Positions 24,681 through 43,030 of a stretch of DNA of 64,000 bases are shown here, one piece after another. Position 1 is the first letter of the stretch. The number at the start of each line of letters is the position of its first letter. Where the stretch lies: NCBI GenBank assembly GCA_027475525.1, contig JAMWFC010000126.1, positions 434,001 through 498,000 on the forward strand, written 5' to 3'. Below the pieces are notes generated by a model, which did not search any database, was not told the DNA's origin, and saw only the letters and a program-made list of their open reading frames with translations. The translations under genes were made by a program, and so were the position numbers. Origin of the DNA: Macrolepiota albuminosa (lineage: Eukaryota; Basidiomycota; Agaricomycetes; Agaricales; Agaricaceae).

Positions 24681-25364
24681 CTAAGTCCTGAAGCAACAAG
24701 TATATATATATTTTTTGGTACTAGTACAATATTCTACAGAAAGCACAAACAAGGAACAAACGAGACACGTGAACAAGAAGGGGGCCCCTAATGCTGGACC
24801 TCTGAACCCCCCTCCCTCAGCCAACCTCAGAAGTCCTCCCCAACCCTCCCTTGGACTGTGCTCCTGCAACATCTCCTCCGTCAACTGGTCCCAAGACGGG
24901 AGCTGCTCACCCTCATTCAGGACCTGCTTGAACCATGACCCAGGGGCAGGAACGTTCCTTCGGTAGTGCACAGCCACCATCCTCCCCAATAGGTTGAGGC
25001 CCTGCTTGACCCCAAGATTTGCCAACTCCAGTAGCAACCCCTCCTGTAGGGATGCAAATGCCATGGCTGCCCCATCCAGAAGCAGGCAATGCTCCTGAGC
25101 CCAGCCTGGAGGTGTCAGCACAGATCAAACCAGGAGAGAAGGGACACTCACTCAATGAGGCCATACACACAATCACAATGTCCCAATGCAGAGCCTCTAC
25201 CAGCCCCACCCCCTGCCCCAGCCTGGCCCACAAGGTGTCTAGCTGGACTACTCTTGCCTCCTCCAACTCCTGGAGCACTGCCTCGCAATCCTCCTCCAAC
25301 CCCCTCTGGAGTGCTGCCTCCTCACTTGCCCCCTCCTTGCACTCCCCCTGCTCCTGCTTGGCCC
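24681..25364 (-). pseudogene. Gypsy-1o antisense accessory gene, C-terminal part
   Basis: Minus-strand frame starting at the inner-element junction: KQEQGECKEGASEEAALQ, a coiled coil LEELEEARV...LWARLGQG, then a GT-AG intron of about 50 nt before GWAQEHCLLLDGAAMAFASLQEG and RNVPAPGSWFKQVLNEG. It matches gypsy-1i 32,377-33,050 throughout, including intron position. The N-terminal half lies on the other side of gypsy-1i at 41,215-42,370. Together they form one gene split by the inner element. Convergent with pol. Confidence 0.78.
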
Positions 25365-26076
25365 TGTCAGGTTCCGCTGAGTCGGGGGCTTTCCGGGAAA
25401 GCAATCGTCCTTACAATGCGGACTTGACCCACGAATACTCGGGTGTCTGGAACTCCGGGGCTAGGACTCCGGGGTTCAAGACGTGGACAGGGATAATCCT
25501 GGGAGAGGGAACTTGGTCCGGGGGTTTTGGGTTGCGAGTAACTGGGGGACTCAGGTGGGGGTCGAGTCGTGAATCGGAGGTTCTAAGACAAGACCAAGTT
25601 AGCAAATTAAAGTCGCGAAGTGCGTATCAATCTTAGAGCACGTGAGTATTCAAGCGTACCAGTCAAATAGAGGGCACGCAACAATTCAAGTAACCAAGGG
25701 AAAACAGTGTAAGCAGTGTAATATCAAGACTAACAAATACAACGGGGAACTACGCTATAAGTACTATGGGACCAGGTCTCGGCGTTCCGGGGTGTCTGGG
25801 ATGGGTTCCGGGAGTCATTGAGTAGCGGGCAGGGACTGATACCTGGATCACACGTGTGGGGCACGCAATCAATTGACACGGAGGGAGCTGTGATGTGTGA
25901 TGCACGTGATCTGATCGTTGATTGGGGCTGGTGGCAGCTGATGGCAGTCCTTGATGCGTGTGATGGCGGCATCGGTGGTCGTGATGGCGGGGCGTGTCCT
26001 GTGGGGTCGGAGGGAGGGTCCCGGGTGGTGTTCCGGGGGTGTCCTGGGGTGAGTCTGGAGGGAAGGGGTCGTGACA
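25365..26076 (-). repeat. Gypsy-1i LTR (3' LTR relative to gag-pol)
   Basis: 712 bp, nearly identical to 40,470-41,209. The accessory gene reads away from this LTR, so its promoter is presumably in or near this repeat at 26,077-26,205. Confidence 0.92.
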
Positions 26077-26205
26077 TCACCCTCCCCTCAGCGCCGAGAC
26101 CCTCTGAGGCGCGCGTAGCTGGTGGTCTGGACCGGGGTCCAACCGTGGGATCCTGCACCTAACCTGCCACGTATTGAAAAAAAAAATTTACCATCAAACT
26201 CAACC

Positions 26206-27250
26206 ATGTCGCGTACGCCGACGCATTCCCCGACGCCCCTGCAAACTAACAAAGTCACACCCCTCATGGCTTGGGAAGCCTGGGATGTGCGGTATCGAGC
26301 CTGCCTGGACCGGGAGCACGTGGTGGCGCTCATGCAACAACGTGAGTATTTCCCACGCTGCTCGCTTGTCGTTACTGACCTTTCCTTTTCAGAACAACAC
26401 AACATTACTGCCTCGGAGGCAGGTCCCAGCCGGCTCCCAGAGCCTGTTCCTGATGCAGGTCCTGGGGGTCCTTTGGGGTCAGGCCCCAGTCGTCCCACGC
26501 CCACTTTTGCACGGATGACCGTGCATCCTCCCCGTCCCCTTCCCCCTCCTCGTTCTAGACTGGTCACCCCTCATTTCCATCGCTCTGGGATGGCAGTGGG
26601 GGCCATTTCCGAGGTCCTGGAGACTCAGCACGTTGAGTGGGCCAGCACAACGCAGGAGGCCTTCAAGGGGGCGCTGGTGAGGCCCCAGGGCTTGCCTCCC
26701 CATGCCTGGTGTATCAGCAACGGGCCAGTAAGTGGCTTCGTACCTCCGGTCCCGTGGCTAATCCTTCCTAGTGTCTTCACTGCGCACATTGCTTGTTGAC
26801 ATGTTTGTTTGAGGCCCCGTCTGCCTCGTCCTGGCGCGACACTTCCGTGTGTGAGGCCTGTCGCCTCAATCATGAGTGATGTTCCGTTTCGGGCCTCTGG
26901 AGGGCATATTGCATTTCGCGGGAGCAGGGTTGGCCGTTGGGAGGGATCACCCGGAGGATGGGGGTGGAGGAGAGGGATTGGGTCGTGGGGGCAGCAGCGG
27001 TTCAGGAGGAGGCGCTGGGGGTGGGGCGGGAGGACGGGGGGTTGTCCAGGTGGGCAGCCGGGGCCGGCCCGTGGTCTTGATCACACGCTGGGTGACCCAG
27101 TCTGGTGCCCCAGGGCAGGAGGAACGTGAGGGGCGCCCTGACAAGGGGAAACAGCGGGCGTCGCCTAGCACTTCCCCAGGGCCCTCCAAGAGGGTGCGCT
27201 TGCCCCCGGAGACCCCATCTCTGGTCTCCCACCCACACCTATCCTCAGCG
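26206..27250 (+). CDS. Antisense accessory gene of gypsy-1i, N-terminal exons: six-cysteine (Zn2Cys6-like) protein
   Basis: Exons 26,206-26,341 and 26,393-26,727, then from 26,772; introns of 51 and 44 nt have GTGAGT/GTAAGT donors and CAG/TAG acceptors, and both recur in gypsy-1o. The spliced frame begins MSRTPTHSPTPL and contains WEAWDVRYRACLDREHVVAL and a Pro-rich linker. Residues 158-194 hold CLHCAHCLLTC and CEACRLNHE-x-C, two CX2CX6C triads with a 15-residue linker. That is the cysteine pattern of fungal Zn2Cys6 binuclear clusters, although the usual linker is shorter. Residue 193 is a TGA (26,877) where gypsy-1o has AGG, a single nonsense mutation. Downstream GPSKRVRLPPETP is in another frame, implying an unrecognised intron or a frameshift. 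The PLE interrupts the gene at about 27,250. A nucleic-acid-binding regulator is one inference. Known genes of this exact type are not recalled. Confidence 0.72.
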
Positions 27251-27254
27251 ACAT

Positions 27255-27947
27255 AGTATACCAAACCTAACACTAACTTAACCCTAACCTAACACTAGGT
27301 TTACCTTAACCAGGTTTAATCAACGTGGTTGCTCTGATGAAGGACCCCTATCACAGGGGGAGATACGTTGAGCCCTAAGGGCAATATACGGCTGCCTAAT
27401 CACCAGCACTTCTATGCGCCCGCTTAAACCCTAGGCAAGGTCATCACCGAATAACCGATCGAATCACGGTGCGATCGTTCTCCTTGATTCGGCTAGTATA
27501 ATGCGCGTCTATCACTGACAGTTGATAAGCGCCGAGGCCTTTATCAACAGACATCACTGATAATCACTGATAATCAGTGATAATCACTGATTGATCTGAT
27601 AAATGATAAGGTCTCCCTGACGATTCTGAAGAACAATAGAGTGTGGCAACCTTGTGGCAAACATGAGGCGCTCACAATATGCCATTGGATGGCTATTGTT
27701 CTATTGTTTTCTATTGTTCTTATTGTTCTTATTGTCTTTATTGTCAGCAGTAAGGCCCTGGCTCGGCGCCTGAGGCGTCTGAACTAGGAAACAAGTCAAA
27801 CGTATGCAAATAGGCCTGATGAGACTTATATAAAGTCGAAACTGGTCGGTTGGGAAGTCCCCAGCCAGTTGCCAGCATACGACAACACCTCCAGACCTAC
27901 CATCGCCCTCTCCTTCTCGCTTCGCTCGAAGTCGAGAGGCTCCTCCC
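27255..27947 (+). repeat. PLE 5' terminal repeat (pLTR), intron-less copy
   Basis: 693 bp, colinear with 31,628-32,376 at an offset of 4,429 (4,373 for the first 28 bases). Only one substitution was noticed (T27,399 versus G31,828). It begins with CTAAC-type degenerate telomere-like units (27,264-27,296), carries a hairpin GCCC-TAA-GGGC (27,372-27,382), a stretch of ATAATCACTG units (27,545-27,600) and a pyrimidine-rich TATTGTT repeat (27,703-27,745). Confidence 0.92.
27801..27881 (+). ncRNA. Type I hammerhead ribozyme (5' pLTR)
   Basis: Helix I: CGTATGC (27,801-27,807) with GCATACG (27,875-27,881), then internal loop AAATA/A, then GGC/GCC (27,813-27,815/27,871-27,873). Core CTGATGA 27,816-27,822. 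Helix II GACTT/AAGTC closes loop ATATA (27,823-27,837). Core GAAA 27,838-27,841. Helix III ACTGG/CCAGT (27,841-27,845/27,865-27,869) is capped by an extra TGGG/CCCA pairing. The predicted cleavage follows T27,870. All invariant core nucleotides are present. Hammerheads in PLE terminal repeats are known in other eukaryotes; self-cleavage here is inferred. Confidence 0.93.
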
Positions 27948-27956
27948 TAACCCTAA
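27945..27956. repeat. Two telomere-repeat units (CCCTAA)2 at the pLTR/body junction
   Basis: CCCTAACCCTAA follows the last base shared by the two pLTRs. At the 3' pLTR end the element meets target DNA without it. It fits a former junction with chromosome-end repeats in a tandem PLE array (inference). Confidence 0.7.
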
Positions 27957-27973
27957 GCTTGCGATCTTTCCTC

Positions 27974-29165
27974 ATGTCTCGTACTCAGCATTCTACCCAC
28001 TCCCGGGCTGATACGGCTATGGCCGTGGATCGTGCGCCCGCTTATTCTTCGTCTTCACACTTTGATATTGACGATGACGATCGTGCTGATGCTGCAGCCG
28101 CTGCGTTGGCCCCCAGCGTCGACGATTCGTCGGCACGGTACGCCAAGTACCAAGCAGCTTCGACGTTGTCGGAGCTGCTCGCGGCACTCCCCTCAGAGTA
28201 CCGTGTCCCCCTTCGTGATCCGCTTATGCAGATCCAGGCTGTGGCAAGGAAACTTGTCGCAGCAAGGTCCACCGTTGCTCGGTGGGAGGACCTTGCGTCC
28301 CGGGACGAACTTCCCCCTGCTTTCAAGGGGAAGGCCTCTCCAAGCGTTCAGCTGTCGTCGCTGTTCGCTGGGACTGCCACCGGCCAGAACGATCTGGCCG
28401 ATATTGCTAAGACCGCTGTCACTGGCAATAAGGCTGTGTTTACTGCTGCGCTCGCTGCAAAGCGTCGCGACGTAACGCACCTGGAATCTCTTTTACGTCC
28501 CCAGAATATCTGGGATGGCCTCCATCCCACCATCTCTGCCCGGTGGGAGGCCATCAAAGGTTCAGCTCAACGGCCAATCTTTGCTAGCGACGTAAACGGA
28601 GAGGTTCAACTCTCTGGATGGGTTACGGACCCTGCTGCTCAGCAGGTGTACAACGCCCTCCGAGAGGACTTGGTCCCGATCGGCGTTCGCGCCTGGATCA
28701 TGGTGGAGTCGCAGGAGCTCGCTTCTGCCTCCAAGAAGAAGGCCAAGTCCGCCCTCAAGAACGATGCTGACGTTGAGATGGGCGAGATCACTTCCGACTC
28801 TATTCGGAAAATGGTCTCCTCAGCCGTTAGCAAAGCTCTCGCCGGCAAAGTGAGTACTCCTACCATGACAGGAGCCATTGACCAACAACGAGGAACGTTT
28901 GTTCTTCGTTTCGGTTACGGCCTCTCTGTCTTGGGACAGGTTTCAGATCTATTACTGATCGATACTCTTCTTTTTCTTCAATCCTTAGGGTGGCCCAAAG
29001 AAGAAGTCCGGCACTCGCTCCGCGCCCACCTCTCGAGGTGGCCCCGGTCCTTCATCCTCGAAGACCGGCTCCGGCAAGTCCAAGAAGTCCGGCGCGGTGA
29101 AGAAGTCGAAGAAAGTCAAGTCCTCGACTTCGCAAAAGGCAAGGAAGGGGAAGGGGAAAGCCTGA
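27974..29165 (+). CDS. PLE ORF1 protein, two exons
   Basis: ATG 27,974; exon 1 to 28,849, intron 28,850-28,988 (GTGAGT...branch-like CTGAT...pyrimidines...TAG, 139 nt), exon 2 28,989-29,165, giving 350 residues. The N-terminus is Ser/Asp-rich, then an alpha-helical body (ASTLSELLAALPSEYR, QIQAVARKLVAARSTVARWEDL, ALREDLVPIGVRAWIMVESQEL). After the intron the tail is very basic: GGPKKKSG...KSKKSG..KKSKKVK..KARKGKGKA, suggesting RNA or DNA binding. If the intron is retained the frame also stays open to 29,251. ORF1 proteins of PLEs are poorly conserved, and I recognise no domain. It lies immediately downstream of the telomere-unit junction. Confidence 0.75.
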
Positions 29166-29183
29166 TTCTCAGGCGTGTCATTT

Positions 29184-29291
29184 GTAAGTACGATGACCCC
29201 TCCACATACCCTGACTGGTATCTAACAATACCACGACCATTAGTTACTTGAACATTATTATCTACTGTTCCGCTTAACGTACTATCTGCAG
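29184..29291 (+). other. Predicted intron between PLE ORF1 and RT ORF
   Basis: Donor GTAAGT, branch-like CTTAAC 18 nt before the acceptor, acceptor CTGCAG; 108 nt. Joining 29,183 to 29,292 fuses the frame that runs through retained ORF1 intron 1 (ends ...LILRRVI) in frame with the RT reading (RYRSFVHTSPNV). Spliced intron 1 ends ORF1 at TGA 29,163 instead. Confidence 0.5.
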
Positions 29292-29368
29292 CTCGTTATC
29301 GTAGCTTTGTACATACATCGCCTAATGTAACGTTGCCTGACGACATTCATCTCCATCTAAGCACGGGC

Positions 29369-31477
29369 ATGAACTTCATGTTTCCGACTAAGCTGAATAA
29401 GGACTTAATAAAATCAGCTTGGGAAGACTTTGAAGCACGCCTTACATGGCGTCTTTACTTTGCTTTCAGTCAATATGGAATGGAGTCCGACTATGATCCT
29501 GACTATGAGGTACCGCATGAGCGTAAAGCGAATCTACCTCAACTACCTACATATCTTCAGCGTGGCATTCGCGCAGGGAGGTCTTTTGTTGACCGATCGC
29601 TACTCAGCATCCCTGACCGATCTCCGAAGGGTCCATACTTCTCGCTAGACCCTAAGACGTACCGCCTGAAGAAGTTCTTGATTGACCATGACTACATTGT
29701 CACTGGCACCGACAAGAACCTCGGAATAGCTGTCAGTAGGCGAGACTGGATCATAGAAAAATCGTTAGAACTACTTAACAACCCAGAGGACTATCATATC
29801 CTCAATCCGCTCATAGCTATAAGTAGACTAACTAAAACAGCGACTGACATGCAAGCAATTGCTAAACAGGCGGACAATATTGACCCCGCCGGACAACTGG
29901 GTAAATTTTTCCGACATCTTATACCTACAAGTGTTAAGGGAGTCATCCCTGTGGAGAACTTTAAGATTCCGCAGTTTTACGGTATTCCTAAAATACATAA
30001 AACTCCGGTTAAATTTAGACCAATCATACCGTGTCACTCTGCCATCCAGAACCCAGCCGCTAAATATGTCAGTAAAAGACTTAAACCGATTATTCAATTG
30101 GCGCCTAGTATCATTCACGGAACGAAAGATCTAGCGCAAAAATTAAGCAGACTCTCGTTGCGGCCTGGTCGCCAGTACTTTATTGTCACTGGCGATGTCG
30201 TAGCTTTCTATCCGCACATAGATCTGACACGCGCTAAGACTTATGCCTTAGACGCATATGCAGAACACTATCTTGGACGCGTGATGATCGCAGGTGAGAA
30301 CCTGCGTGAAAGCTTCGGCGACGAACTAATAGATGAATACAAGCTATTCTTCGACTGTCTTCGTGTAGGAAACGAGAATCTTATTGTACAATTTGAGGGT
30401 ACATACTATCACCAACACAGAGGTCTTGCAATGGGTGTTGCGGACTCTCCAGACTTGGCGAACATTTATGGACTGTGCTTTGAGAGGCACTTTGATATCC
30501 TCAACGATGACCGAGTCCCGTTTTACGGTCGTTACATAGATGACTGCCTAGCTATTGTATATGCCTCCAGTGAAGCTGAAGCTATATCAATTGTAAGCAG
30601 AGTTAGATTCTATAACTGTACAATAGAATGGAACGCGTCGGCTTTCTCACAGCCATTTTTGGATATGCTGATTTATCGAGACCATGATAATAAGCTACAG
30701 CATATGCCCTATCGGAAAACGCGTAACCATCATGAAAGAATCCCATGGCACTCCGCCCATCCACTAGATGTCAAGAAAGGCACCTTTTCGGGCGAGATGA
30801 GCAGGATGGCCACCCTCTGTAGTAACTTAGACGTCTACAGGGATGCGGTAGGAGACCTTATTGGGTTGTACCGTGCGCGTGGCTATCCAGATAACTTGGT
30901 TAAAAGCTGGGCTAAATCCCAGTTCACTGAACGATGGAATAATAGGCTCAATGTCAAAGAGCAGCACGATCACGGCGCGTTCGTACTCAAATCTGAGTTT
31001 AACCAAACGTGGGAATTCTTCAATGTCAAAGAACTTGGCAGGATAATAACTAGTAGCTGGCGAATGTGGTTAAACAAAGCCGAACTCGTGACTTGGAAAG
31101 AGCCCGAGCTTCGCCGTACGTTGGATCTAGGCGCTTTGCGCCAAGTGGACCCGGACGTGGCATTGGTAGTTGCAGTGTCACGGCCGCCCCTTGATGATTT
31201 GGTTCTTCTAGTCCCTGACGTCCGGAAATTAGATCTACTAGACAATAGATGGATTACTTCTCATAAGCGTACTCTTAACATTCGAGACTTAACTTTGTCT
31301 TGGAAAAATATTGTCATGCAACGGTTAGCAGAAGCCCAGACTTCACAACCCCAGACAAGGAAGGAGGAAACTCGAAAGCGTGGTCGGAGACAATCCGACG
31401 ATGACATCACGATCTTTCTACATCGACGAAGTCGGTCTCCTCCGGCACCTGGGGCCTGGCGAGCCGCTCCATTCTGA
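29369..31477 (+). CDS. PLE reverse transcriptase (endonuclease-deficient)
   Basis: First ATG 29,369 gives 702 residues; the frame is open upstream to the acceptor at 29,291. Blocks in order: DKNLGIAVSRRDWI (about residue 113), FYGIPKIHKTPVKFRPII (about 203), the catalytic GDVVAFYPHIDL (274, first Asp), HRGLAMGVADSPDLANIYG (350) and FYGRYIDDCLAI (388, YIDD). This is the telomerase-like RT fold of PLEs. The C-terminal region ends in a basic KRGRRQSDDD segment; no GIY-YIG motif is visible, so the enzyme probably primes on existing 3' ends, as Athena/Coprina elements do at telomeres. No stop or frameshift and all catalytic Asp present: potentially active. It would copy element RNA in the nucleus. 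Confidence 0.92.
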   Translation: MNFMFPTKLNKDLIKSAWEDFEARLTWRLYFAFSQYGMESDYDPDYEVPHERKANLPQLPTYLQRGIRAGRSFVDRSLLSIPDRSPKGPYFSLDPKTYRLKKFLIDHDYIVTGTDKNLGIAVSRRDWIIEKSLELLNNPEDYHILNPLIAISRLTKTATDMQAIAKQADNIDPAGQLGKFFRHLIPTSVKGVIPVENFKIPQFYGIPKIHKTPVKFRPIIPCHSAIQNPAAKYVSKRLKPIIQLAPSIIHGTKDLAQKLSRLSLRPGRQYFIVTGDVVAFYPHIDLTRAKTYALDAYAEHYLGRVMIAGENLRESFGDELIDEYKLFFDCLRVGNENLIVQFEGTYYHQHRGLAMGVADSPDLANIYGLCFERHFDILNDDRVPFYGRYIDDCLAIVYASSEAEAISIVSRVRFYNCTIEWNASAFSQPFLDMLIYRDHDNKLQHMPYRKTRNHHERIPWHSAHPLDVKKGTFSGEMSRMATLCSNLDVYRDAVGDLIGLYRARGYPDNLVKSWAKSQFTERWNNRLNVKEQHDHGAFVLKSEFNQTWEFFNVKELGRIITSSWRMWLNKAELVTWKEPELRRTLDLGALRQVDPDVALVVAVSRPPLDDLVLLVPDVRKLDLLDNRWITSHKRTLNIRDLTLSWKNIVMQRLAEAQTSQPQTRKEETRKRGRRQSDDDITIFLHRRSRSPPAPGAWRAAPF

Positions 31478-31655
31478 AAGAAGCGGGTTTCAGTACTCTC
31501 ACCCGGCTAGGGAGGAGTAGACTGCCCAGGACATCGGAATAGCCAACAAGTTCTCTCTTGCCGCCTTACGGTAAGTAGACGTGAACGTTGATATGGTGAG
31601 GACTATGCTAACCTCATCATAGTTGGGAGTATACCAAACCTAACACTAACTTAAC

Positions 31656-31711
31656 GTGCGTCAATCCCTTAGTAATAAGGGCTCTTAGCTGACAATCAGA
31701 ATGCATTACAG
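31656..31711 (+). other. 56-nt intron-like segment absent from the 5' pLTR
   Basis: GT...AG ends, a CTGAC branch site about 20 nt before the acceptor and a length typical of basidiomycete introns. In the 5' repeat the flanks (ACTTAAC and CCTAACC) are fused without loss, exactly as splicing would leave them. Confidence 0.75.
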
Positions 31712-32229
31712 CCTAACCTAACACTAGGTTTACCTTAACCAGGTTTAATCAACGTGGTTGCTCTGATGAAGGACCCCTATCACAGGGGGAGATACGTTGA
31801 GCCCTAAGGGCAATATACGGCTGCCTAAGCACCAGCACTTCTATGCGCCCGCTTAAACCCTAGGCAAGGTCATCACCGAATAACCGATCGAATCACGGTG
31901 CGATCGTTCTCCTTGATTCGGCTAGTATAATGCGCGTCTATCACTGACAGTTGATAAGCGCCGAGGCCTTTATCAACAGACATCACTGATAATCACTGAT
32001 AATCAGTGATAATCACTGATTGATCTGATAAATGATAAGGTCTCCCTGACGATTCTGAAGAACAATAGAGTGTGGCAACCTTGTGGCAAACATGAGGCGC
32101 TCACAATATGCCATTGGATGGCTATTGTTCTATTGTTTTCTATTGTTCTTATTGTTCTTATTGTCTTTATTGTCAGCAGTAAGGCCCTGGCTCGGCGCCT
32201 GAGGCGTCTGAACTAGGAAACAAGTCAAA

Positions 32230-32310
32230 CGTATGCAAATAGGCCTGATGAGACTTATATAAAGTCGAAACTGGTCGGTTGGGAAGTCCCCAGCCAGTTG
32301 CCAGCATACG
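32230..32310 (+). ncRNA. Type I hammerhead ribozyme (3' pLTR)
   Basis: Exact repeat of 27,801-27,881 at offset 4,429; predicted cleavage after T32,299. Cleavage at both sites would release a 4,429-nt unit-length RNA from a tandem or read-through transcript. Confidence 0.93.
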
Positions 32311-32376
32311 ACAACACCTCCAGACCTACCATCGCCCTCTCCTTCTCGCTTCGCTCGAAGTCGAGAGGCTCCTCCC

Positions 32377-33050
32377 CCCTGTCTGGGGAACTCCAAGCTG
32401 ACGAAGTTGGGGCTCTGCAGAAGCAGGAGCAGGGGGGCCACGGGAAGGGGGCGAGGGAGGAGGCGGCAGCTGGGCGGGATCTGAAGGAGGGTCAGGAGGC
32501 GATGATCCGGGACCTGGAGGAGGCCAGGGTCGCCCGAGGAGAAGTGGAGGCCGAGTTGGAGGCGCTGCAGGCGAGGCTGGGGCAGGGAGTGGGGAGCCCG
32601 GAGAGGATCCCCTCGGAGCTGGAGTTGATGGAGGGGCTGCGCCATGATGTGGTCATTGCGCGCATGGTGTCCTTAAGTGAGTCCCTTGTCACTCACTCAC
32701 CTCTGTCGCTAACGTCTTCAGGCTGGGCCTGGGAGCACCATCTGCTCCTGGACGGGGCTGCCACGGCACTCGCTGCGTTGCGGGAGGGGCAACGCCTGGA
32801 GGTGATGACTCCCAGGGTGGAGCGCGGCCTTGATCTCTTGGGGCGGCTGGTGGCCGCACATCGGCAGAGGAACGTGCCCGTCCCAGGATCCTGGTTTGAG
32901 CGCGTGCTGGACGAAGGCAAGCCCCTCCTATTCTGGGATCTGTTGGCCAAGGAAGTGTGGCAGGAGCATGGCCCAGAGGGGATGGGGGAGGGTTTCCGGG
33001 GCTGGCCAAGGGGAGGGGAGGGTGAGGGTAGTTTGGGGCCCCAGCTCTAG
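32377..33050 (+). CDS. Antisense accessory gene of gypsy-1i, C-terminal exons (coiled coil)
   Basis: Continuation of the gene cut by the PLE. The frame reads GELQADEVGALQKQEQGG, then a long coiled coil (RDLEEARVARGEVEAELEAL), then RHDVVIARMVSL. Intron 32,677-32,721 (45 nt, GTGAGT...CAG) keeps the frame. The last exon has WAWEHHLLLDGAATALAAL, RGLDLLGRLVAAHRQRNVP and PGSWFERVLDEG, stop 33,048. The intron and all blocks are matched in gypsy-1o. It ends about 240 bp from the stop of the convergent integrase-chromodomain. Coiled coil plus six-cysteine cluster resembles dimeric fungal regulators in outline only. Confidence 0.75.
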
Positions 33051-33293
33051 GGGTCCCCGTTTTCTTGCTATCGCTTGTCTTGTGGTCTCGTAACTGTAGC
33101 ATAGTGTACCTCTAAAAATGTATATACTCGGTTGTCCTGGATCAGTGAGAAGTATGAGTAAGGGGGCGAAGAAACTGAAGGAAACCAGAAAGAACACCTT
33201 GCCCAGATTTCGGGGCACTACTACGAAGAGGTACTAAAAAAGAGTAAGATCTAGAAAGGGAAAGTAGAAAGTATACATGGGAGTTGAATCCCT

Positions 33294-33545
33294 ACTGAGC
33301 CCAGAGGCGGGGGTTATGCCCACTACTGCCGTCTGTGAGTCCTGCGCCTGGAAGGTCGTTTCCCAGGTGCCGTTGTTGGAAGTCCTGGAGTTTGTCGAGG
33401 GCGCCTTCGAGGTTTCCACGTGGTTCCCAAGTGTCGTCTTCCGGGCCGTATCCCTTCCACCGTACAAGGAAGTGGGGTCGTCCACGAATATTCCGGGAGT
33501 CGAGGATGTCTTCAACCTGGTAGTGGTACTCGTCCTCGACTTCGA
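33294..33545 (-). CDS. pol: Gypsy-1i chromodomain
   Basis: [38 protein letters not shown] and [11 protein letters not shown] form a canonical chromodomain with aromatic residues Y, W and W in the expected cage positions; stop TAG 33,291-33,293. A small frameshift separates it from the integrase tail (HPPDPSPSP), whereas gypsy-1o is continuous there. Chromodomains steer chromovirus integration to heterochromatin, which agrees with the nesting seen here. Confidence 0.85.
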
Positions 33546-34672
33546 CCGGGGGAGGGGGAGGGATCCGGGGGGTGTCGTTCCAGGAGGCAGACGTGGAATA
33601 CCGAGTGCAGACCTTTTAGTCCCAGGGGAAGCTCGATCTTGTAGGCGTGGGATGAGACCTTCTTCAATATTTTGAACAGGCCGAGGCGCTTGTGATCGAG
33701 TTTTGGGGAGGGCCGGTGGGTGCGGAGGTGGTGTCGATCTAACCATACCTTTGTCCCAGGGGCCCAATCGGGGGTGTCTTCCCATCTCTGGTCGGCGTGT
33801 TTCACATAGGCCTGGTTTGCGGTATCAATCTCTTCCTGGAGAAACTCGTTAAGGGACTAGAGATCCCAGGCGACCTCGTGGGCGGCGTGTGACAGGATGT
33901 CCCGGAGTGAGAGCGTCAGTCGAGGGTGGTATCCCTTGTTGGCAAAGAAGGGTGATACCCCGGTGGCAGAGTGTGGTGTGTTGTTGTAGGTGAACTCAGC
34001 CAGGGGGAGCTCGGCGCGCCAGTCGTCCTGCAAGTAGTTGACGTACAGTCGGAGGTACTGCTCAAGGGACTGGTTGACCCTTTTGGTTTGGCCGTCAGTT
34101 TCGGGGTGGTAGGTGGTAGAGAGGTTAGTTTTTACCTCAAGTGCCTTACACAGGGAAGTCCAAAACTTGGACACAAAGAGGGGGCCGTGGTCGGAAACGA
34201 TGTTGTCTGGGAGGCCATGTTTGGCGAAGACGTGCTTGAGGAACAGCCGGACGAAGTCTGGGGCGGTATCCGTGGTGTGGCAGGGTAGGAAGATGCCCTG
34301 TTTGGTTAGCCTGCACACAATGACAAGAATGGCATCGAACCCTTCAGATTCCAGGAGTTCAACAATGTGGTCCAGAGATATGGAGGACCAGGGACATCGT
34401 CTGACCGGCAGGGGTTTCAGGAGTCCGTATGGTCGGTGTTGGGGGACCTTGGCCTGGAGGCAGGGTTCGCACAATCGAATGTAACGGGTTACGTCCTTCT
34501 TCAACCCTGGCCAAAAGTAAGTCCAGGAGATAAGCTGGAGAGTCTTACGTATTCCAGGGTGTCCCTGGAGCTTGTGGTCGTGGTGTTGACGGAGGACGTC
34601 GTAGCGGAGTTGGGCATGATCCGGGATGTAGATGCGGCCGTCCCGGAGGAGGAGTTTTTCATCAGGGGACAA
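33500..34672 (-). pseudogene. pol: Gypsy-1i integrase
   Basis: HHDHKLQGHPGIRKT...CEPCLQAK is the HHCC zinc domain; SLDHIVELL, NIVSDHGPLF and ETDGQTKRVNQ supply the catalytic D, D and E. TAG at 33,857 interrupts before the tail RWEDTPDWAPGTKVWLDR...[26 protein letters not shown]. The core is intact, unlike gypsy-1o, where the zinc Cys are lost. Confidence 0.87.
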
Positions 34673-35618
34673 GGAGAAGGCGGGGTCCCAGTCGGTTCCA
34701 TCGGAAGGGTTTCAGGGGTTGTGATCGGTGAAGTACTTGTCTCAGGGGGCGCAGCGGATCTGGCTCAGGGTCCCTTCATTGTTTAAGATTAGTACGGCAT
34801 TCAGATGTTTGGGAGGGATCACCACACGATGATTGAACACATTGCGTTCCGCCTCAAACGACTTCTTGGGATAGACGTCCGGTCGACAGGTGAGGGCATC
34901 GGGTTTAGCTCCGAGTCGTCCCGGGCGGTACTGGATTGTGAAGTCGTATTCTGAGAGAACCTTGGACCATCGGGCCTGTCGTCGACTAAGTTGCTTAGTT
35001 GTGGTGAAGTACTGCAGGTTGTTGTGATCCGAGTAGACCTGAATCTGGTGCTGGGCTCCCTCGAGGTAGGCTTGCCATTGTTTGAAGGCTTTGATGATGG
35101 CGAGGAGCTCCTTGTTGTAGATGTCGTAGTTGAGCTTGGCGTTGATCATGGACCAGGTGTAGAAGGCGACTGGCCAGGGCTCCCCACCGTCAGGTCCCAT
35201 CTGCGAGAGAATCCTAGCGATGGCGTAGTCGGAGGCGTCGCATTCCAGGATAATCGGGAGGGCCGGGTCGTAGTGCTGGAGTACGGGGGCGGCCGTGAAA
35301 GCCTCCTTGAGCAGGTTAAAGACACTCTGGCACTTACTGTCCCAGTTCCAGGCGACGTCCTTTTGTGTGAGCCAGTTGAGGGGTTTTGTGATACCGGAGT
35401 AGTTATCTATGAACCTCCAGTAGAAGTTAGCAAAACCCAAGAAGGATTGTACTTCCTTGACGTTCCAGGGCTGCGGCCAGTTGACAATGGCCTCAACCTT
35501 GTGGGGGTCCATGCGAACACCATTCGGGGATACTATGACGCTGAGATACTCAACCTCTTCCGTGTGGAATGAACACTTCTCGGGCTTGGCATGGAGGTTG
35601 TGCTCCCAGAGGTGTTCG

Positions 35619-35772
35619 AGGACTTGCCGGACATGTTTCTGGTGGTCCTCCTGCGAGTCGGAATAGATGAGGATGTCGTCCAGGTAGACGATCACAGGAC
35701 TTGCCGGACATGTTTCTGGTGGTCCTCCTGCGAGTCGGAATAGATGAGGATGTCGTCCAGGTAGACGATCAC
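35619..35772. repeat. Perfect 77-bp head-to-tail duplication (join 35,695/35,696)
   Basis: 35,619-35,695 equals 35,696-35,772. It duplicates the YLDD region of RT, which would be lethal to the enzyme and is absent from gypsy-1o. Confidence 0.98.
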
Positions 35773-36171
35773 GAAGACGTCGCTCATGTTGTGAAAGATG
35801 TCATTCATGAAGTATTGGAACGTGGCGGGGGAGTTAGTCATTCCGAAAGGCATCACAAGGTACTCAAACAGACCATACCGCGTGTGGAACGTGGTTTTCC
35901 ACTCATGTCCTGGGGTGATGCAGACGTTGTTGTAACCAGAGCGAAGGTCAATCTTCGTGTAAACCTTGGCACTGCGGAGTCGATCGACCAGATTGCCAAT
36001 GAGCGGGAGCGGGTAGCGGTTCTTCTTGGTGATCTTATTGAGTCCCTGGTAGTCGACACAGAGTCAGAGCGAGCTGTCCTTCTTCTTGGCAAATAGAACT
36101 GGGGCTCCGGTGGCGGAGGCGGAGGGTTGGATGAATCCCTTACCGAGCATTTCGTCGAGGTAATCCTTGAG

Positions 36172-36327
36172 GGCCCGGAGTTCGACCTCCGACATGTTGT
36201 ACACCTTGCCGAAAGGGGGGGCAGCTCCTTCCTCGAGGTCGATGGTATGGCCCGGAGTTCGACCTCCGACATGTTGTACACCTTGCCGAAAGGGGGGGCA
36301 GCTCCTTCCTCGAGGTCGATGGTATGG
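36172..36327. repeat. Perfect 77-bp head-to-tail duplication (join 36,248/36,249)
   Basis: 36,172-36,248 equals 36,249-36,325 plus two bases. It lies in the RT N-terminal region and is absent from gypsy-1o. Confidence 0.98.
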
Positions 36328-36461
36328 TCATAGGGGCGGTGAGGGGGAATCTCCTTGGCATCTCCTTTGGAGAATACATCAGCGAACTCATGATACTCCG
36401 GAGGAACTACTTCTCAGAGGATTTGCTCCTCGGTTTTCTTTTCTGGGGGAATAGCGTCCCC

Positions 36462-37160
36462 TCATAGATGTTCTTCCGGGAGAGAAGGCAAGGTGTGTAG
36501 CTGAAACGTGGGAGTTCCATCCTTCATGAGGTGGGCAAAGGGGGCGGCCCCAATGATCCTAATGTCAAGTGCGTTCGGGTTGATTGGGGTCGCAGATGCA
36601 TCGGCCGAAGCGGGTATGACATGTGTCTGAGACCGGCCGGGGTAGTTCGGCTCTTTATACTTGTTCCGAGGAATGTTTGGGGGTCGATCAGGGGCCTTGC
36701 AGTCTCGGACAGGCGTGGGGGGCGCGGCAGTTGTCCTGGGGGTGTCGGGCGTTGGGTCGTTTCCTAGAGCCCGGAGGTGCACGGCGGTCGAGGGGTGGTC
36801 TTTGGGTCCTGGGAAGGTCATGGTAAGCGTCCTCCAATCGATGTCGGGGTTTGTGTTGCGCAGCCAGGGTAGTCCCAGCACCATCGGGGTCAATTCGTGA
36901 AGTCGCGTGACCAGGAAGTCAGAGGTGAACTCGTAGTCGTTGTCCAGGATCACGCGTCCCAAGTGAGACCTCTGGATGGGGCTGGAGGAGGAGGGGGTGC
37001 CGTCGAGGTGTTGCAGGCGGAGGGGCTGGTCAAGGGAGTCGTGGGGAAGGTTGAAGGCATCGCTGATGAAAACTCCGGTGGCTCTGCTGTCGATGAGGGC
37101 CGATATCGGTCCCAGGGCACCGTCCAGCCTGGCATTGATGACGAAGGATTGGGACGAGCG
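36462..37160 (-). pseudogene. pol: Gypsy-1i protease-like domain 2
   Basis: INARLDGALGPISALIDSRAT (DSR where retropepsins have DSG), LDQPLRLQHLD, RVILDNDYEFTSDFLVTRLH and MVLGLPWLRNTNPDIDWRTL, then a Pro/Thr linker toward RT. The catalytic Asp is kept but the obligatory Gly is Arg, the opposite lesion to gypsy-1o domain 2. A TAG at 37,164-37,166 separates it in frame from domain 1. Confidence 0.77.
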
Positions 37161-37163
37161 GGA

Positions 37164-37825
37164 CTAGAGTCTGGGGGGTGGTGGGGGCCCGTTCTTCGGG
37201 GTAGGGTTCAGGAAGTGGGAGATGTCGAAGGGGAGTTGCTGGTTGTTGGGTGTCGGGTCCCGGGTCAGGCGAAGGGTGAGATGTCGCCAATCAATGTGGG
37301 GGTTGGTGTCTTGGAGCCACGGGAGCCCTAGGACCAGGAGGGGTGGAGTTTGGTTATTAACATCTGGAGGGTGTGAGTCTGTCCGTTGGTGAAAGTAACG
37401 GGCATACACACGAAATAAGTGACGTCCCCCGCCGTAGAGGCGTCTCCATCAAAGAGGCAGAGCCGTACCGGGACTGGGAGTCGCTGAGCGGGTTCCGGGG
37501 TGAGGGTAGACCATGCTTCATCGATGAAGTTGTCAGTGGCGCCACTGTCAACGAGGGTGTTGAGGGGGGTTCTGGAGGGGGTGAGGCAGGTTTTGAGAAG
37601 AAGAGAGTGCGAGGAGTGGGAGGGTAGATAAGCCATGAGGGTGTCCTGTATGAGTGTCATAGAGCGAAGATGTGAGACCGGGGCAGAGAAGATGTCAGAG
37701 TCGATTCCGCAATTTAGGGCATCTTCTGGATCTAAATTGCTGGGTTGTTTTCCGAATACTTGTAAGTGGCGTCCTCCCCTTTGAAGGTCCAGGTGGCACG
37801 TCCCATGACCTGCCGTTGGGGGCAC
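37164..37825 (-). pseudogene. pol: Gypsy-1i protease-like domain 1
   Basis: MTLIQDTLMAYLPSHSSHS, NTLVDSGATDNFIDEAW (intact DSGA), VTFTNGQTHTLQMLITKLH and LGLPWLQDTNPHIDWRHLTL; one frame change near 37,340. It is the better conserved of the two tandem retropepsin domains and presumably the working protease that processes Gag-Pol. Confidence 0.8.
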
Positions 37826-38720
37826 TCGGAGATGAAGTGGTCTTTCTCACCGCAGAGTATGCAGACACCCTCCCTTCTCCGTCGGGACCTCCACCCAGGG
37901 TCGCCCCTTTTTTGAGAGCCGGTTGGCCCGGAGGGCCTCTTTGTCCCGTTCATCGGTGAAGTCAGGATCTTCGGAGTCTTCCGGAGGTTCCTCGGGGTTT
38001 GGTGCGTCGCCCGGGTCGTTGGCGGCCACGGCGGCGTTGAGTTGGGCCTGAGGGCGGGCGCCGCTGCCAGGGTTAGTATTGGGCGGGCCGCAACTCACTG
38101 GGGATCGGCCACCAGGGAACGCGGGAGGACCAGGGTTTTGGGTTTGGGGGTTGGGGGTTTCACCGGGGGGCCATGGGGGTCCTCCCCTAGGGTTCCAGAG
38201 GGTTCAGGAGTTTGAGTACTCGCTGCAGTCTTCCCAGTAGTGCTGGTCGATCTGCATGACGAGGGCCTTGTATCTGTCATAGGAGGGTTGTTTTGGGGCA
38301 AGTCAAAGGATGTCCTTGATATGTTGCAGCAGTGTGTGGCGGAGGGCATACTGGAGAGCACTGTAATTCCAGCCTGTCTTGTAAGCTTCCTTCTCGAAAC
38401 ATATGATGAAGGTGGTGAAGCGTTCCTCAGAATGCATCTGGAAGTTGAAGAGGTTGTCCTCAGCCTCGGCCATGGTGTCGTAAATCCCGAACTTCCTGGA
38501 GAACTCGTCAACAAAAGCTTGCCAGCAGGAGAGCGCCGGGTTGTTGGGGTCGAACTGGATGAGGGCCGTGTAGTGGTCAAAGGCGATCCCCTGGAGGTAC
38601 GAGGCGGCAAAGGCCACTTGGGAGCTGTCAACCTGAAATGTGAGTGGTTTCGCCTGAAACGTATTGAGACACTGAGTGAGGAATGTATGCCATTTTCAGA
38701 GGTCCCAGCCTGTGAATGCA
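37732..38720 (-). pseudogene. gag: Gypsy-1i Gag: capsid core and zinc knuckle
   Basis: FAASYLQGIAFDHYTALIQFD, CWQAFVDEFSRKFGIYDTMAEAEDNL and FITFIICFEKEAYKTGW-like blocks form the Retrotrans_gag capsid region (38,617-38,303); the nucleocapsid knuckle CILCGEKDHFISEC (CX2CX4HX4C) lies near 37,860. A stop follows TGWDL at about 38,696, and frames change around 38,220 and 37,900. Gag assembles cytoplasmic particles. Confidence 0.82.
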
Positions 38721-38775
38721 TCGGGTTTCTGAATGTCCAGACATCCTTTGCGGGTGAGAGCGTCGCAAGCGTCGT

Positions 38776-40440
38776 CTAGTCTGGCAGTGTTGCGGAGGGA
38801 AGGGCTGGCATTGTAGTAGTAGTAGTAGTAATGATTACCCCCCCTCCTTGTGGAGGAAAAGCACCGAGGGCAGGACCCCACCCGCCTGGAGGGCCTCCTC
38901 TGGGTGGCTCACCTGGGGGTCCACGCCTGCGGGGTCCATTGTCCCAGGGGGATTCGTTCCTGCTAGAAGGAGGCCCAGGTCTCCACGCAGGGGGTGGTGG
39001 AGGTGGGGGACCTGGGAGTTGTCCTCGAGGTTCGGCTGGGGGTGGCGGAGGCAGTCGGGGAGGGTTCAGCGGTGTCGGGTCAGGTGGAGGGGGGCCGGGT
39101 GCTGGGTCAGGTGCCGGATTGCGTGGGGGACATTCAGCCCAGGAGAGTCGTGCTTGCATCGGGGGTCGCGGGGGGTTCCGTAGGTCGAAGTGGGGTGGCG
39201 GATTGCGACAGAAACTGGGTTCTGGAGGGGCCGGGGTGGACATGGGAGGCGGTGCCAGAGCAGGTGCGGGCGCGGGACGTTGTTTGTTGTTGCAGTGCGT
39301 GAGCTCGTCGATGTAGCACAGCATGTCGTCCGTGCTGGGGGTGTCCACCTGGGCTCTACCGGGGTTCGCTGGGGACAGAGGTCGGGCGTTGTCCATTCGC
39401 GGGAGCAGTTTCAGGGGTCTCTGGGGCTGTCCCCAGGTCTCGAAGGTACTAGGAACGGAGTTAGCCCTGCAGCAAGTTGACAAGCCTACCGTGTGGGCAG
39501 CGGGTTGATCAAAGAGACCTCCAGTCAGATTGAGGGACCGCAATATGGCTGAGGCGTTTTGTCGCTCTTCCCGTTGTCATTGTTCCGGAGTGGGGGCCGC
39601 GGGGGCTGTTGGGGCTGCCGGGGCCAGTTCTGGGGGTTCTTGTCGAATGTGAATTGAGCGACCTGGGTCCGCGGGGTTGTTGAGGGGTCGAGGGGAGGGG
39701 GACGCGTGGACTTCGTTGAGCAGCTGCTGCAATTCTTCTTGAAGGATCGTATTGCGCCTATACTTTACCATAGTTTGCTCCGGGAGTTCTCCTCACGTGA
39801 GGCAATCCCCAAATTCGACCAAGCAATGAGCCCATTCCTCTGGAGTGTCTTCGAAGTCGTTGTGCCCGAATTCTGTGAGCAGCGCCCTTGCCCGTTGCAC
39901 GAAGTCCTCCAGCGAGATCCTGAATGAGTGGAGTACTTTGTCCCATTGCCGTTCATACTCCTCGAGGCGTTGTCATCCCATTGGCGAGAGAGGGGTTCGA
40001 GCAGGTGGAGCGGTGGCCGGGTAGTGACGAGGGGGATAGTCGGGGTAGGGGGGTCCTTGGGGCTCTCGGGGTTGGGGAACGGGGTGCTGGTAGCCGTAGT
40101 AGGGGGTGGGTGCAAAGGGGCCCTCGCTGGGGGGAATCGGGCGAGGCCCACTGGGTACTGGTGGGGTCTCTGGCAGGCCCCCGGGGATGCTCCGGTACGA
40201 GGGGACCTCCATGGGTCGTGCCATGACTAAGTTGGGTGGAGGGGCCCAGCTGGCTGAGGGCCCCAGATCATAGAGGGATGGGTCGGGGGCCCAGTGGCAG
40301 TAGAGATACAGAGGTTCGTACGGGAGGGGTGGATAGATGGGGCGGGGGGTCTGTGCAGAGTAATGATTGGGTACCGGGCACCCGTAGGGTCGGTCTGGTA
40401 GCCCGTGGAGTAGTAAGTGTGAATATATGTAGCCATCATG
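38776..40440 (-). pseudogene. gag: Gypsy-1i Gag N-terminus and Pro-rich region
   Basis: From the 5' LTR inward: a Pro/Tyr-rich segment (YPDYPPRHYP) with an overlapping 70-codon ATG frame at 40,439 (MMATYIHTYY) that is also open in gypsy-1o. Then RLEEYERQWDKVLHSF...RALLTEFGHNDFEDTPEEWAHCLVEFGD (about 39,976-39,800), MVKYRRNTILQEELQQLL (39,771), a stop, and a very Pro-rich block 39,543-38,776 with PPPPP runs. Which of the two short frames supplies the start is unresolved. Confidence 0.7.
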
Positions 40441-40469
40441 AACAGTGTAAGGAGGGAGTCTTGATATTA

Positions 40470-41209
40470 TGTCAGGTTCCGCTGAGTTGGGGGCTTTCCA
40501 GGAAAGCAATCGCCCTTACAATGCGGACTTGACCCACGGATACTCAGGTGTCTGGCACTCCGGGGCTAGGACTCCGGAGTTCAAGACGTGGACAGGGGTA
40601 ATCCTGGGAGAGGGAACTTGGTCCGGGGGTTTTGGGTTACGAGTAACTGGGGGACTCGGGTGGGGGTCGAGTCGTGAACCGGAGGTTCTAAGGCGAGACC
40701 AAGTTAGCAAATTAAAGTTGCGAAGTGCGTATCAATCTTAGAGCACATGAGTATTCAAGCGTGCTAGTCAAAGCATGCCAGTCAATGCGTACCAGTCAAA
40801 TAGAGGGCACGCAACAATTCAAGTAACCAAGGGAAAACAGTGTAAGCAGTGTAATATCAAGACTAACAAATACAACGGGGAACTACGCTATAAGTACTAT
40901 GGGACCAGGTCTCGGCGTTCCGGGGTGTCTGGGATGGGTTCCGGGAGTCATTGAGTAGCGGGCAGGGACTGATACCTGGATCATGCGTGTGGGGCACGCG
41001 ATCAATTGACGTGGAGGGAGCTGTGATGCATGATGCGTGTGATCCGATCGTTGATCGGAGCTGGTGGCGGCTGATGGTGGTCCTTGATGCGCGTGATGAC
41101 GGCATCGGTAGTTGTGATGGCAGGGCGTGTCTTGTGGGGTCGGAGGGAGGGTCCTGGGTGGTATTCCGGGGGTGTCCCGAGGTGGGTCAGGAGGGAAGGG
41201 GTCGTGACA
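40470..41209 (-). repeat. Gypsy-1i LTR (5' LTR relative to gag-pol)
   Basis: 740 bp; 28 bp longer than its partner because of one extra unit of the GTGCCAGTCAA-type short repeat near 40,770. The TSD GGCCC follows at 41,210. Confidence 0.92.
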
Positions 41210-41214
41210 GGCCC

Positions 41215-42370
41215 ACTCCAAACACTTCTGCAGGACCCCCACATCAATGTCTAGTGGCCTCCTGGACAAGGGAGAAAAGGCCTCCAGAGAAAGATGCGCT
41301 GAGAAGGCCAGAATTGGGGTCTCTACAGGCAGATGTGCCCTCTTGGAAGGCCCCGAGAAGGGGCTAGGCAACATCCGCCACTTCCCCTTATTGAGGCACC
41401 CCTGAGTACCGGACCAGGTTGCCCAGCATGTGATCAACATCACAGGCCGGCCCTGGCCCCCACCTGGCTGACCCCCCTCTCCCCTGCCCCACCCTCAGAA
41501 ACTCCCGTGGGCACCTCCTCCAAATCTCCTTCCAGCTTTGCCATCCAGTCTTTCTCTTCCACCCCCATCCTCCAGGTCATGCCCCCCAGCGGCCACCCCT
41601 GCTTCTGCAAGACACAATAGGCCCTCCACAATGCCGAAATGGAGCACCTCTCATGGTTGAGGTGGCACGCCTTGCACACAAATATGTTCCTCTAGGTAGA
41701 GGAGCCCAGGGCTTCGAATAGACAAGGCACAATATGACGGGTGCAATGTAAGCACTGGAACCGATGTCAGCAGCAAATCAAAGGTACAGAGATACTTACC
41801 GGCCCATTGCCAATGCACCACACATGGTGATGTAAACTCTGGGGCCTCTTTAGGGCCCTCTAAAAGGCCTTCTGTGAGTTGTCCTCACACAAGAGTCTCT
41901 GATTTTCTAAGACCACTAAAATGGCCCCCACAGCCATGCCAGAGCGACGATAGCGAGAAGCCACAAGGCAGAGTTGTGGAGAAGGGTGTGGGTGAGGGGA
42001 GCCCACAGTCATCCATGCCAGGGCAGGCACAGGACAACTGGGACCTGCCTCAGGGGCAGGTTTGGGAATTGACCTGAGAGGACTAAGCGAGCCTGTCTCA
42101 GGATAAGGCTCTGAGAGATGGCTGGGACCCACTTTCAGAGCAGAAGTGTGGTGTTGTTCTAAGAAAGGGAAGTCAGTCGTGGTAAGTGGGGCAAGCACAG
42201 ATAAACTCACATTGGACTAGTGCCACCATGCACTCACAGTCAAGCCAACACCAGTACTTTGCATTCCAGGCCTTCTACATGACCAGGAGGGCAATTTTAT
42301 TTGTAGGTGGAGGCATCGGAGAATGTGTTGGCATGTGTGACATGTCAAGTTTGATGGTAAAATTTTTTTT
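41215..42370 (-). pseudogene. Gypsy-1o antisense accessory gene, N-terminal part with six-cysteine cluster
   Basis: Starts MSHMPTHSPMPPPTNK near 42,345, decayed by a TAG in the first exon. It keeps the first intron and HRSGMAVGAI-like block (RYRRSGMAVGAILVVLE), and intron 2 with GTAAG...TTCCAG (45 nt). The second-intron acceptor is directly followed by CLHCTRHIVPC, then after 15 residues CKACHLNHERC (41,753-41,650), two perfect CX2CX6C triads. ISALWRAYC and GWPLGGMTWRMGVEEKDW come next. It ends at the GGCCC insertion site of gypsy-1i within LEWA. Agreement with the gypsy-1i copy in exons and introns shows this is a true gene. Confidence 0.75.
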
Positions 42371-42473: not shown

Positions 42474-43030
42474 TGTCACGACCCCTCCCACCTGGAACCA
42501 CCCCAGGACACCCCTGGAACTCCGTCTGGGGCCCCTCTTCTGACCCCATGACACAACTCCCCACCATCACAACTGCTGACACTGCCATCATGAGCAGCAA
42601 GGCCTGCCATCATGCAGTATCCCCAACAGCCCCATATCACGAACTCCAGGACTACCTGATGGCCTGACCACCACCCTGCAATCAACAATTGAATCATGTC
42701 ATTCAACCTAGCCATCATATATCACGCATTATGACTCACCTTGACCACCACCCTGCAATCAACAATTGAATCATGTCATTCAACCTAGCCATCATATATC
42801 ACGCATTATGACTCACCTTCATGCCAATTGATCATGCACCCTGCATGTGTGATTCTCAGTATACAGTCCCCTTCCGCTACTCAATGCCCCCCAGAACCCT
42901 GTAGTACTTATAGAGTAGCCCCCTCCTTGTATTCGCTAATCTTGATATTGCATTTGATTGTTTGCATGCCCTTTGATTGACTGGTATGCACTGACTAGTA
43001 CGCTAGCCTTCAACTCAGCGGAACCTGACA
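42474..43030 (+). repeat. Gypsy-1o 3' LTR
   Basis: 557 bp, TGTCACGACCCC...GGAACCTGACA; 480 bp after removing the 77-bp duplication at 42,665-42,819. It lacks a middle segment found in the 5' LTR. TSD GTAAG follows. Confidence 0.9.
42665..42819. repeat. Perfect 77-bp head-to-tail duplication (join 42,741/42,742)
   Basis: 42,665-42,741 equals 42,742-42,818 plus one base. Lies in the 3' LTR of gypsy-1o and is absent from the 5' LTR at the homologous place. Confidence 0.97.

Follow-up and report, generated by a model that had tools for sequence, protein, structure and literature searches.

Intron-bearing antisense accessory gene with a conserved six-cysteine module in a chromodomain gypsy retrotransposon of Macrolepiota albuminosa

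The stretch of DNA considered here, in the following called the window, comprises 64,000 nucleotides (nt) of the basidiomycete Macrolepiota albuminosa (contig JAMWFC010000126.1, positions 434,001 to 498,000) and harbors two nested copies of a chromodomain gypsy element, a long terminal repeat (LTR) retrotransposon of the chromovirus type. Between pol and the 3' LTR, this element carries an accessory gene oriented opposite to gag-pol, which is, as judged from its sequence, real, spliced and under purifying selection on its amino acids. The predicted protein of 522–548 amino acids would act as a nuclear DNA-binding regulator of its own element family, setting LTR transcription or preventing silencing, a reading to which a probability of roughly 55% is assigned. 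A preliminary description of the same DNA had already proposed that the element encodes its own regulator. The spliced and selected accessory gene behind this proposal stands, while the assignment to the Zn2Cys6 family fails and the coiled coil is not supported.

The gene belongs to a large family. Genome searches covered the own 100-Mb assembly, in which exon 4 of the younger window copy (copy 2) found at least 150 scored matches of 71–100% identity among 789 first-look candidates, and the gene is therefore no product of chance. Seventy loci were fetched by exon 4 and hence chosen independently of the cysteines discussed below. A gene stretch including the start, in some cases internally deleted, was obtained from 48 of them; the removal of one identical copy left 47, and four further copies with large gaps were dropped for codon counts (leaving 43). 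In 68 of the 70 loci, the C-terminal part of pol is found opposite to the gene; no locus has both on one strand, and two lack a pol end. Likewise, among the reverse transcriptase (RT) matches listed (the best 150 of 2743 candidates), at least 56 feature an exon-4 match 2.87–3.20 kb downstream on the opposite strand, and none features one on the same strand or upstream. In the 68 loci with an opposite pol end, a gap of 203–479 nt separates the end of the gene match from the pol match, which leaves them free of overlap. The distance to the LTR is nearly fixed as well: in 31 of the 32 copies with at least 780 nt of upstream sequence, 126–132 nt separate the ATG from the TGACA with which the 3' LTR ends. 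Besides, pairs of matches with identical scores occur on single contigs (L009 and L010 at C27:466721 and C27:640915; further pairs on C59, C30, and C126), which suggests large recent duplications or a duplication in the assembly.

Selection acts on the spliced reading frame. The ratio of nonsynonymous to synonymous divergence (dN/dS, mean dN over mean dS of the 43 copies) amounts to 0.25, far below 1, compared with 0.20 for the adjacent pol end (59 loci and the reference). By region, it is lowest in the cysteine region (0.13), followed by exon 4 (0.17), exon 1 (0.18), exon 2 (0.24), the stretch before intron 3 (0.31), and the middle of the gene (0.34). The other five frames gave 1.21, 1.28, 1.38, 1.25, and 0.42, the last being an antisense frame whose low value is perhaps an echo of third-position change. 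A codon model of the five copies that are still open reached a log-likelihood (lnL) of -5051.6 with omega free vs. -5243.2 with omega fixed at 1, the latter being the best value over kappa 1.5, 2, 2.5, 3, 4, 6, and 8. For the cysteine codons in 42 of the 43 copies, the corresponding values were -2300.3 and -2423.5 (the latter at kappa 6, which fitted best among three values). As the open copies are diverged from each other (pairwise dS 0.33–0.80) and yet feature a low dN/dS (0.19–0.32), their lineages must have kept the gene for a long time. The sequence-based grounds for refutation named in the preliminary description are not borne out: diverged copies within the same genome retain the gene, dN/dS lies far below 1, and the cysteines are conserved (see below).

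The preliminary description had counted at least three GT-AG introns in the gene; three were found in the aligned copies and no fourth. The donor GTRAGT, the branch site CTRAY, and the acceptor YAG are mostly kept throughout the 47 aligned copies, whereas the intron interiors drift, and the three introns measure 49–51, 44–48, and 44–46 nt in most copies. Among the 43 copies, the donor GT of introns 1, 2, and 3 is kept in 34, 43, and 42 and the acceptor AG in 43, 42, and 41, respectively. The deviating intron 1 donors, with A replacing G in seven copies and C replacing T in two, are changes as decaying copies would show. Divergence per site amounts to 0.32–0.51 in the intron interiors and 0.34 at third codon positions vs. 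0.16 each at first and second positions. Within the five open copies, all differences in exon length are multiples of three, whereas differences in intron length are not. An open frame of at least 480 codons results for 5 of the 47 copies once the introns are removed, compared with one of 47 if they are retained. Precise intron loss was not found among the 47 copies, judged by lengths and alignments, with larger deletions spanning an intron in some of them. This fits a propagation via sense RNA only and agrees with the earlier suggestion that introns persist in antisense orientation because splicing does not act on the genomic gag-pol transcript.

Intron types are shuffled among the 47 copies, as the same type of intron 3 is paired with different types of intron 1. 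At synonymous sites, the accessory gene (0.55–1.07 by region) has diverged about twice as far as the pol end (0.28) or further, as compared in overlapping sets of loci. Both observations point to recombination between subfamilies. Single copies additionally show tandem duplications of an exon-intron border (L072 and L077, with an intron 2 stretch of 123 nt and an intron 1 stretch of 126 nt).

The hallmark of the predicted protein is a module of two cysteine triads, CX2CX6C-X15-CX2CX6C, which is present with the previously described linker of 15 residues in both window copies. Its six cysteines are kept in 42/42, 40/42, 41/41, 42/42, 42/42, and 43/43 of the copies with a residue at the respective position (95–100%), and 37 of the 43 copies retain the exact spacing. 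A cysteine six positions before the module is kept in 43/43 copies and one ten positions after it in 37/43, whereas the other three cysteines of the reference are kept in merely 6/41, 5/43, and 3/42. These counts were taken from the 43-copy set because the alignment used for profile searches (A1) leans to clean copies: it holds 26 of 35 open cysteine-region stretches, the other nine having a frame shift or deletion within 70 residues.

In the window, copy 2 lies on the minus strand between the two repeats of a 5-bp target duplication (GGCCC, 25360–25364 and 41210–41214) and sits within the antisense gene of the older copy 1. The gag-pol genes of copy 1 run on the plus strand, and its LTRs start at 17098 (5') and 42474 (3'). 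The features are as follows.

25365–26076, minus strand: 3' LTR of copy 2, upstream of the accessory gene (direct repeat with 40470–41209, TG...CA ends, GGCCC duplication)
26077–26205, plus strand: leader of 129 nt, probable promoter or 5' untranslated region (identity across copies, LTR-to-ATG distance)
26206–26341, plus strand: exon 1, 136 nt, ATG at 26206 (ATG and donor in the sequence; 136 nt in 43 of 47 copies)
26342–26392, plus strand: intron 1, 51 nt (GTGAGT, CTGAC, CAG; copy alignment)
26393–26727, plus strand: exon 2, 335 nt, Pro/Arg-rich N-terminal region (dN/dS 0.24, 891 pairs)
26728–26771, plus strand: intron 2, 44 nt (GTAAGT, CTAAT, TAG; copy alignment)
26772–27255, plus strand: first part of exon 3, end approximate, with the cysteine module followed by RGRP and a basic nuclear-localisation-like stretch
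26772–26882, plus strand: six-cysteine module of copy 2 (TGA at 26877–26879 in this copy)
27256–32384, plus strand: Penelope-like insertion in exon 3, foreign to the accessory gene, borders approximate (terminal direct repeats)
32385–32676, plus strand: second part of exon 3, start approximate, Glu/Arg/Leu-rich stretch (dN/dS 0.31)
32677–32721, plus strand: intron 3, 45 nt (GTGAGT, CTAAC, CAG; copy alignment)
32722–33050, plus strand: exon 4, C-terminal domain with GSWF..VL.EG, stop TAG at 33048–33050 (dN/dS 0.17; genome matches)
33234–40150, minus strand: gag-pol of copy 2, disrupted and split over several frames, with approximate borders (profile matches to integrase, RT, and RNase H)
40470–41209, minus strand: 5' LTR of copy 2 (direct repeat with 25365–26076)
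41210–42343, minus strand: 5' part of the copy 1 accessory gene, from the ATG at 42343 to inside exon 3 (intron 1 at about 42210–42159)
24780–25364, minus strand: 3' part of the copy 1 accessory gene with the rest of exon 3, intron 3 (25151–25106), and exon 4; end approximate, as the usual stop is lost
42474–43030, plus strand: 3' LTR of copy 1, end approximate (repeat with the 5' LTR starting at 17098)

Accordingly, the bounds 26206–33050 given before for the gene of copy 2, its antisense position opposite to gag-pol and its GSWF..VL.EG end hold, with the qualification that about 5.1 kb of this interval belong to the Penelope-like insertion. Neither window copy is intact: the copy 2 gene is broken by this insertion and the copy 1 gene by copy 2, stops and frame shifts are present in both, and one stop codon lies within the cysteine module of each. 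The classification as chromovirus follows from rve, SH3_Tf2-1, and Chromo profiles in the pol of a related copy; the window copy itself matches Integrase_H2C2, rve, RVT_1, and RNase H, the Chromo match coming from the related copy. Among the named matches to this related pol, the best (74%, covering 91% of the query) belong to Termitomyces sp. T112, which makes Termitomyces or a close relative the probable host. At 965–1689 lies another LTR of the family, the third, which has diverged further and is 82–92% identical to the other LTRs in matched blocks. No match was obtained in an Rfam scan of 25000–41500.

The insertion at 27256–32384 looks recent, with terminal direct repeats of 665 nt that are 99.85% identical. 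It contains open frames at 27869–29251 and 29333–31477 and telomere-like CCTAACC/CCCTAA stretches close to its ends. Its RT frame had no Pfam or PDB match; based on its RT motifs, it is taken to be Penelope-like, and it resembles the fungal Coprina type.

With regard to function, the cysteine module is probably zinc-binding and resembles the Zn2Cys6 cluster of fungal regulators. Common to both are the six conserved cysteines in two CX2CX6C halves, the basic residues between cysteines 2 and 3, and the fungal host. Zn_clus was the only Pfam family to match most members of alignment A1 (19 of 26 at E-values up to 10, best E 0.0017). A profile alignment (hhalign) against seven Zn2Cys6 domains of the host placed the six cysteines in register and in order (E 0.0062), but at a probability of only 6%. 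Of the six single-protein tables with a Zn_clus match, five align triad 2 to the first profile half and one aligns triad 1 to the second. Further features compatible with a nuclear DNA-binding protein are present in all five open copies: an AT-hook-like GRP motif, which reads RGRP in four copies and WGRP in the fifth, and a KGKRR..KRAR-like basic stretch of the nuclear-localisation type.

A second line of evidence comes from the DNA preceding the gene. The leader was compared in 32 sequences, including the window copy, with enough upstream length, and its mean pairwise identity reached 82–93% in five 30-nt intervals from 26056. Most intervals of the LTR are less alike, the lowest values there (0.23–0.39) including length variation. 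Beside the LTR, the leader includes the element's polypurine tract, whose role could account only for the adjoining nucleotides. As possible binding sites, the leader also contains an inverted repeat CCTCAG N12 CTGAGG (26086–26109) and the palindrome TGGACCGGGGTCCA (26128–26141). The sequence TCCGGG and its complement occur 5.6 times per LTR and leader vs. 1.0 by Markov expectation (5.7-fold). The corresponding ratios are 1.6 for the gene body, 2.9 for the pol end, and 2.1 for copy 2 gag-pol; two further segments of the window gave 0.2 and 0.6. Nine of ten CCGGG-type positions of the window copy are common to 14–26 of the 32 copies, and the LTR at 960–1700 holds two TCCGGG sites. Besides, the two LTRs of copy 2 (25366–26077 vs. 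40482–41209) differ at 42 of 700 aligned positions; 40 of these substitutions are transitions, 26 of them at CpG. This suggests a methylation-driven, CpG-type decay, which may make it worthwhile for the element to encode a factor that counters silencing.

Taken as a sequence of events, the favored regulator would be made from a transcript antisense to gag-pol, initiated within the 3' LTR or the conserved leader of 129 nt and spliced at the three short introns to yield the protein of 522–548 amino acids. Equipped with the cysteine module, the RGRP motif, the basic stretch, and the conserved C-terminal domain, this protein would enter the nucleus and bind repeated sites in LTR and leader, with TCCGGG as candidate. 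Binding would then set LTR transcription or keep the LTR from being silenced. A bolder version, in which a zinc-cluster protein with possibly swapped Zn2Cys6 halves recognises TCCGGG in its own LTR and leader and shields the family from silencing by CpG methylation, is tentative and rather unlikely in its full extent.

Several results weigh against the regulator. Zn2Cys6 domains usually feature a linker of about 5–12 residues and regulators of this kind carry a coiled coil behind the cluster. Here, the linker of 15 residues exceeds the 5–11 residues of the seven host domains. The coiled coil claimed previously is not supported, as its heptad contrast was reached by 178–709 of 2000 shuffles in the five open copies and is thus not distinguishable from composition. 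All displayed Zn_clus scores of the module stay below the Pfam cut-off of 21 bits (best displayed 17.3), and so would the member with E 0.0017 (estimated at about 19 bits by scaling), compared with 39.0 and 33.3 bits for two Zn2Cys6 control domains of the host. A full-length open copy matched no Pfam family at E-values up to 10. None of the 21 places found in a PF00172 search of the own genome lies near the accessory places listed for exon 4, and the profile search of the module against PDB remained empty. Sequence searches against NCBIfam and PDB returned chance-level matches or none. Because of the displayed scores, the full-length copy without match, and the conflicting order of the halves, the module is likened to Zn2Cys6 but not filed there. 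The sole predicted fold, made for exon 4 from two window pieces, says nothing at a mean confidence (pLDDT) of 49.3. At the DNA level, the old copy 1 LTRs hold 0.5 TCCGGG site each, and the enrichment rests on related LTRs. As the 32 copies share ancestry and are not independent, it is only a lead for candidate binding. Finally, expression, zinc binding, DNA binding, target sites, and the direction of the effect are all predictions from sequence.

The strongest competitor is an accessory factor of the replication cycle, namely a nucleic-acid chaperone, a factor of nuclear import or export, or a partner that helps the chromodomain integrase to target integration. This is possible, albeit doubtful. 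The cysteine module and the basic stretches would suit such a factor, and the selection on the gene is close to that on the pol end (0.25 vs. 0.20). Nevertheless, the cysteine spacing is unlike the CX2CX4HX4C of nucleocapsid knuckles, the antisense placement separates its expression from that of gag-pol, and the conserved leader and the repeated LTR motifs suggest a control at the DNA level. Accessory nuclear export factors do exist in LTR elements, as in the case of CERV of Cer1 (PMC10309623, in excerpt).

It is improbable that the element has picked up a regulator gene of the host which merely travels along or is of use to the host instead of the element. Such a capture would explain the introns and the Zn2Cys6-like module, which are both reminiscent of host regulators, and fungal transposons are known to capture genes such as TET/JBP (PMC12730594, in excerpt). 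However, the gene accompanies pol in 68 of the 70 loci, keeps a constant distance to the LTR, decays together with the element, and matches the PF00172 domains of the host only weakly by profile.

Very improbable is a function of the antisense RNA itself, by forming double-stranded RNA or interfering with the gag-pol RNA, with the reading frame as a relic. The convergent arrangement with pol would allow for this, and the idea has been raised for antisense open reading frames (ORFs) (PMC7264820, in excerpt). It is opposed by the selection on amino acids, with dN/dS of 0.13–0.34 by region vs. 1.2–1.4 in four of the five other frames and 0.42 in one, and by the lack of overlap between gene and pol matches in the 68 loci. 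That the features of the window are decayed relics which no longer have a function, as the interruptions and stops of both window copies and the 42 of 47 copies not open over at least 480 codons might imply, is the least credible explanation for the family in view of the five diverged open copies (dS 0.33–0.80, dN/dS 0.19–0.32), which do not, however, speak for the two window copies.

Genes in this position have precedents. Antisense ORFs between pol and the 3' LTR (aORF-3R) are known from the plant elements Grande (gene23), RIRE2, Retand (TRP28), and PvRetro13 as well as from fungal Boty of Botrytis, with no function assigned in the excerpted text (PMC7264820). Nuclear or DNA-binding properties were seen or predicted for some of them, including a predicted DNA binding of the Retand TRP28 proteins (PMC11963269, in excerpt), and Grande has its own promoter. 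The accessory gene shares the antisense position between pol and the 3' LTR, the presence in most copies and a conservation comparable to that of pol. It differs by the basidiomycete chromovirus background, the three spliceosomal introns, and the six-cysteine module; introns of the known ORFs go unmentioned in the excerpts of PMC7264820 and PMC11963269, and the Pfam scan of the full-length copy yielded no TRP28 or SMC match.

HBZ and APH-2/3/4 of human T-cell leukemia viruses (HTLVs) are encoded by spliced antisense transcripts driven by the 3' LTR and act as nuclear regulators of 5' LTR transcription (PMC10186651, in excerpt). The layout is similar, with an antisense gene that begins next to the 3' LTR, and its conserved splice sites would be compatible with a comparable expression. 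Still, the likeness concerns layout. HBZ belongs to the bZIP proteins and stems from an infectious retrovirus, whereas the present protein features a cysteine-rich module; a Pfam scan of two long open frames (E up to 10) gave no bZIP match. The TET/JBP dioxygenases borne by fungal transposons are another accessory gene product thought to counter silencing by methylation. In contrast to the predicted DNA-binding protein of an LTR element, they are enzymes and reside in DNA transposons (PMC12730594, in excerpt).

Outside this genome, the spread of the accessory gene appears to be narrow. This is suggested by a search of the whole protein and the cysteine region against 5.8 billion proteins, which found no homologue at E 0.001 (7992 and 62 candidates, respectively) under a length rule that may miss single exons, whereas a pol piece in the same search matched 5399 of 6325 candidates. 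Viral contigs matched neither the cysteine region nor exon 4; since pol found no match there either, this collection is uninformative. A spliced antisense gene of a fungal LTR retrotransposon was not found in searches of open-access literature, judged by the titles and abstract starts listed. The word antisense does not occur in the text of a fungal chromovirus survey (PMC2864245), and the excerpt of PMC10119272 contains nothing on this element.

As far as searches of open-access literature show, the gene is new in its three introns, its cysteine module, and its occurrence in a basidiomycete chromovirus. For years, accessory genes have been described on the antisense strand of LTR retrotransposons, but no function has been attributed to them. 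With its introns, the selection on amino acids, diverged copies, a cysteine module, a conserved leader, and candidate sites, the present gene makes both its role and the question of the strand directly testable. Moreover, the rule that antisense introns survive where only sense RNA is copied can be checked in other elements. Should the recognition of TCCGGG and the protection from methylation hold true, the family would provide a fungal counterpart of HBZ that has introns in its gene and, in addition, a role against silencing.

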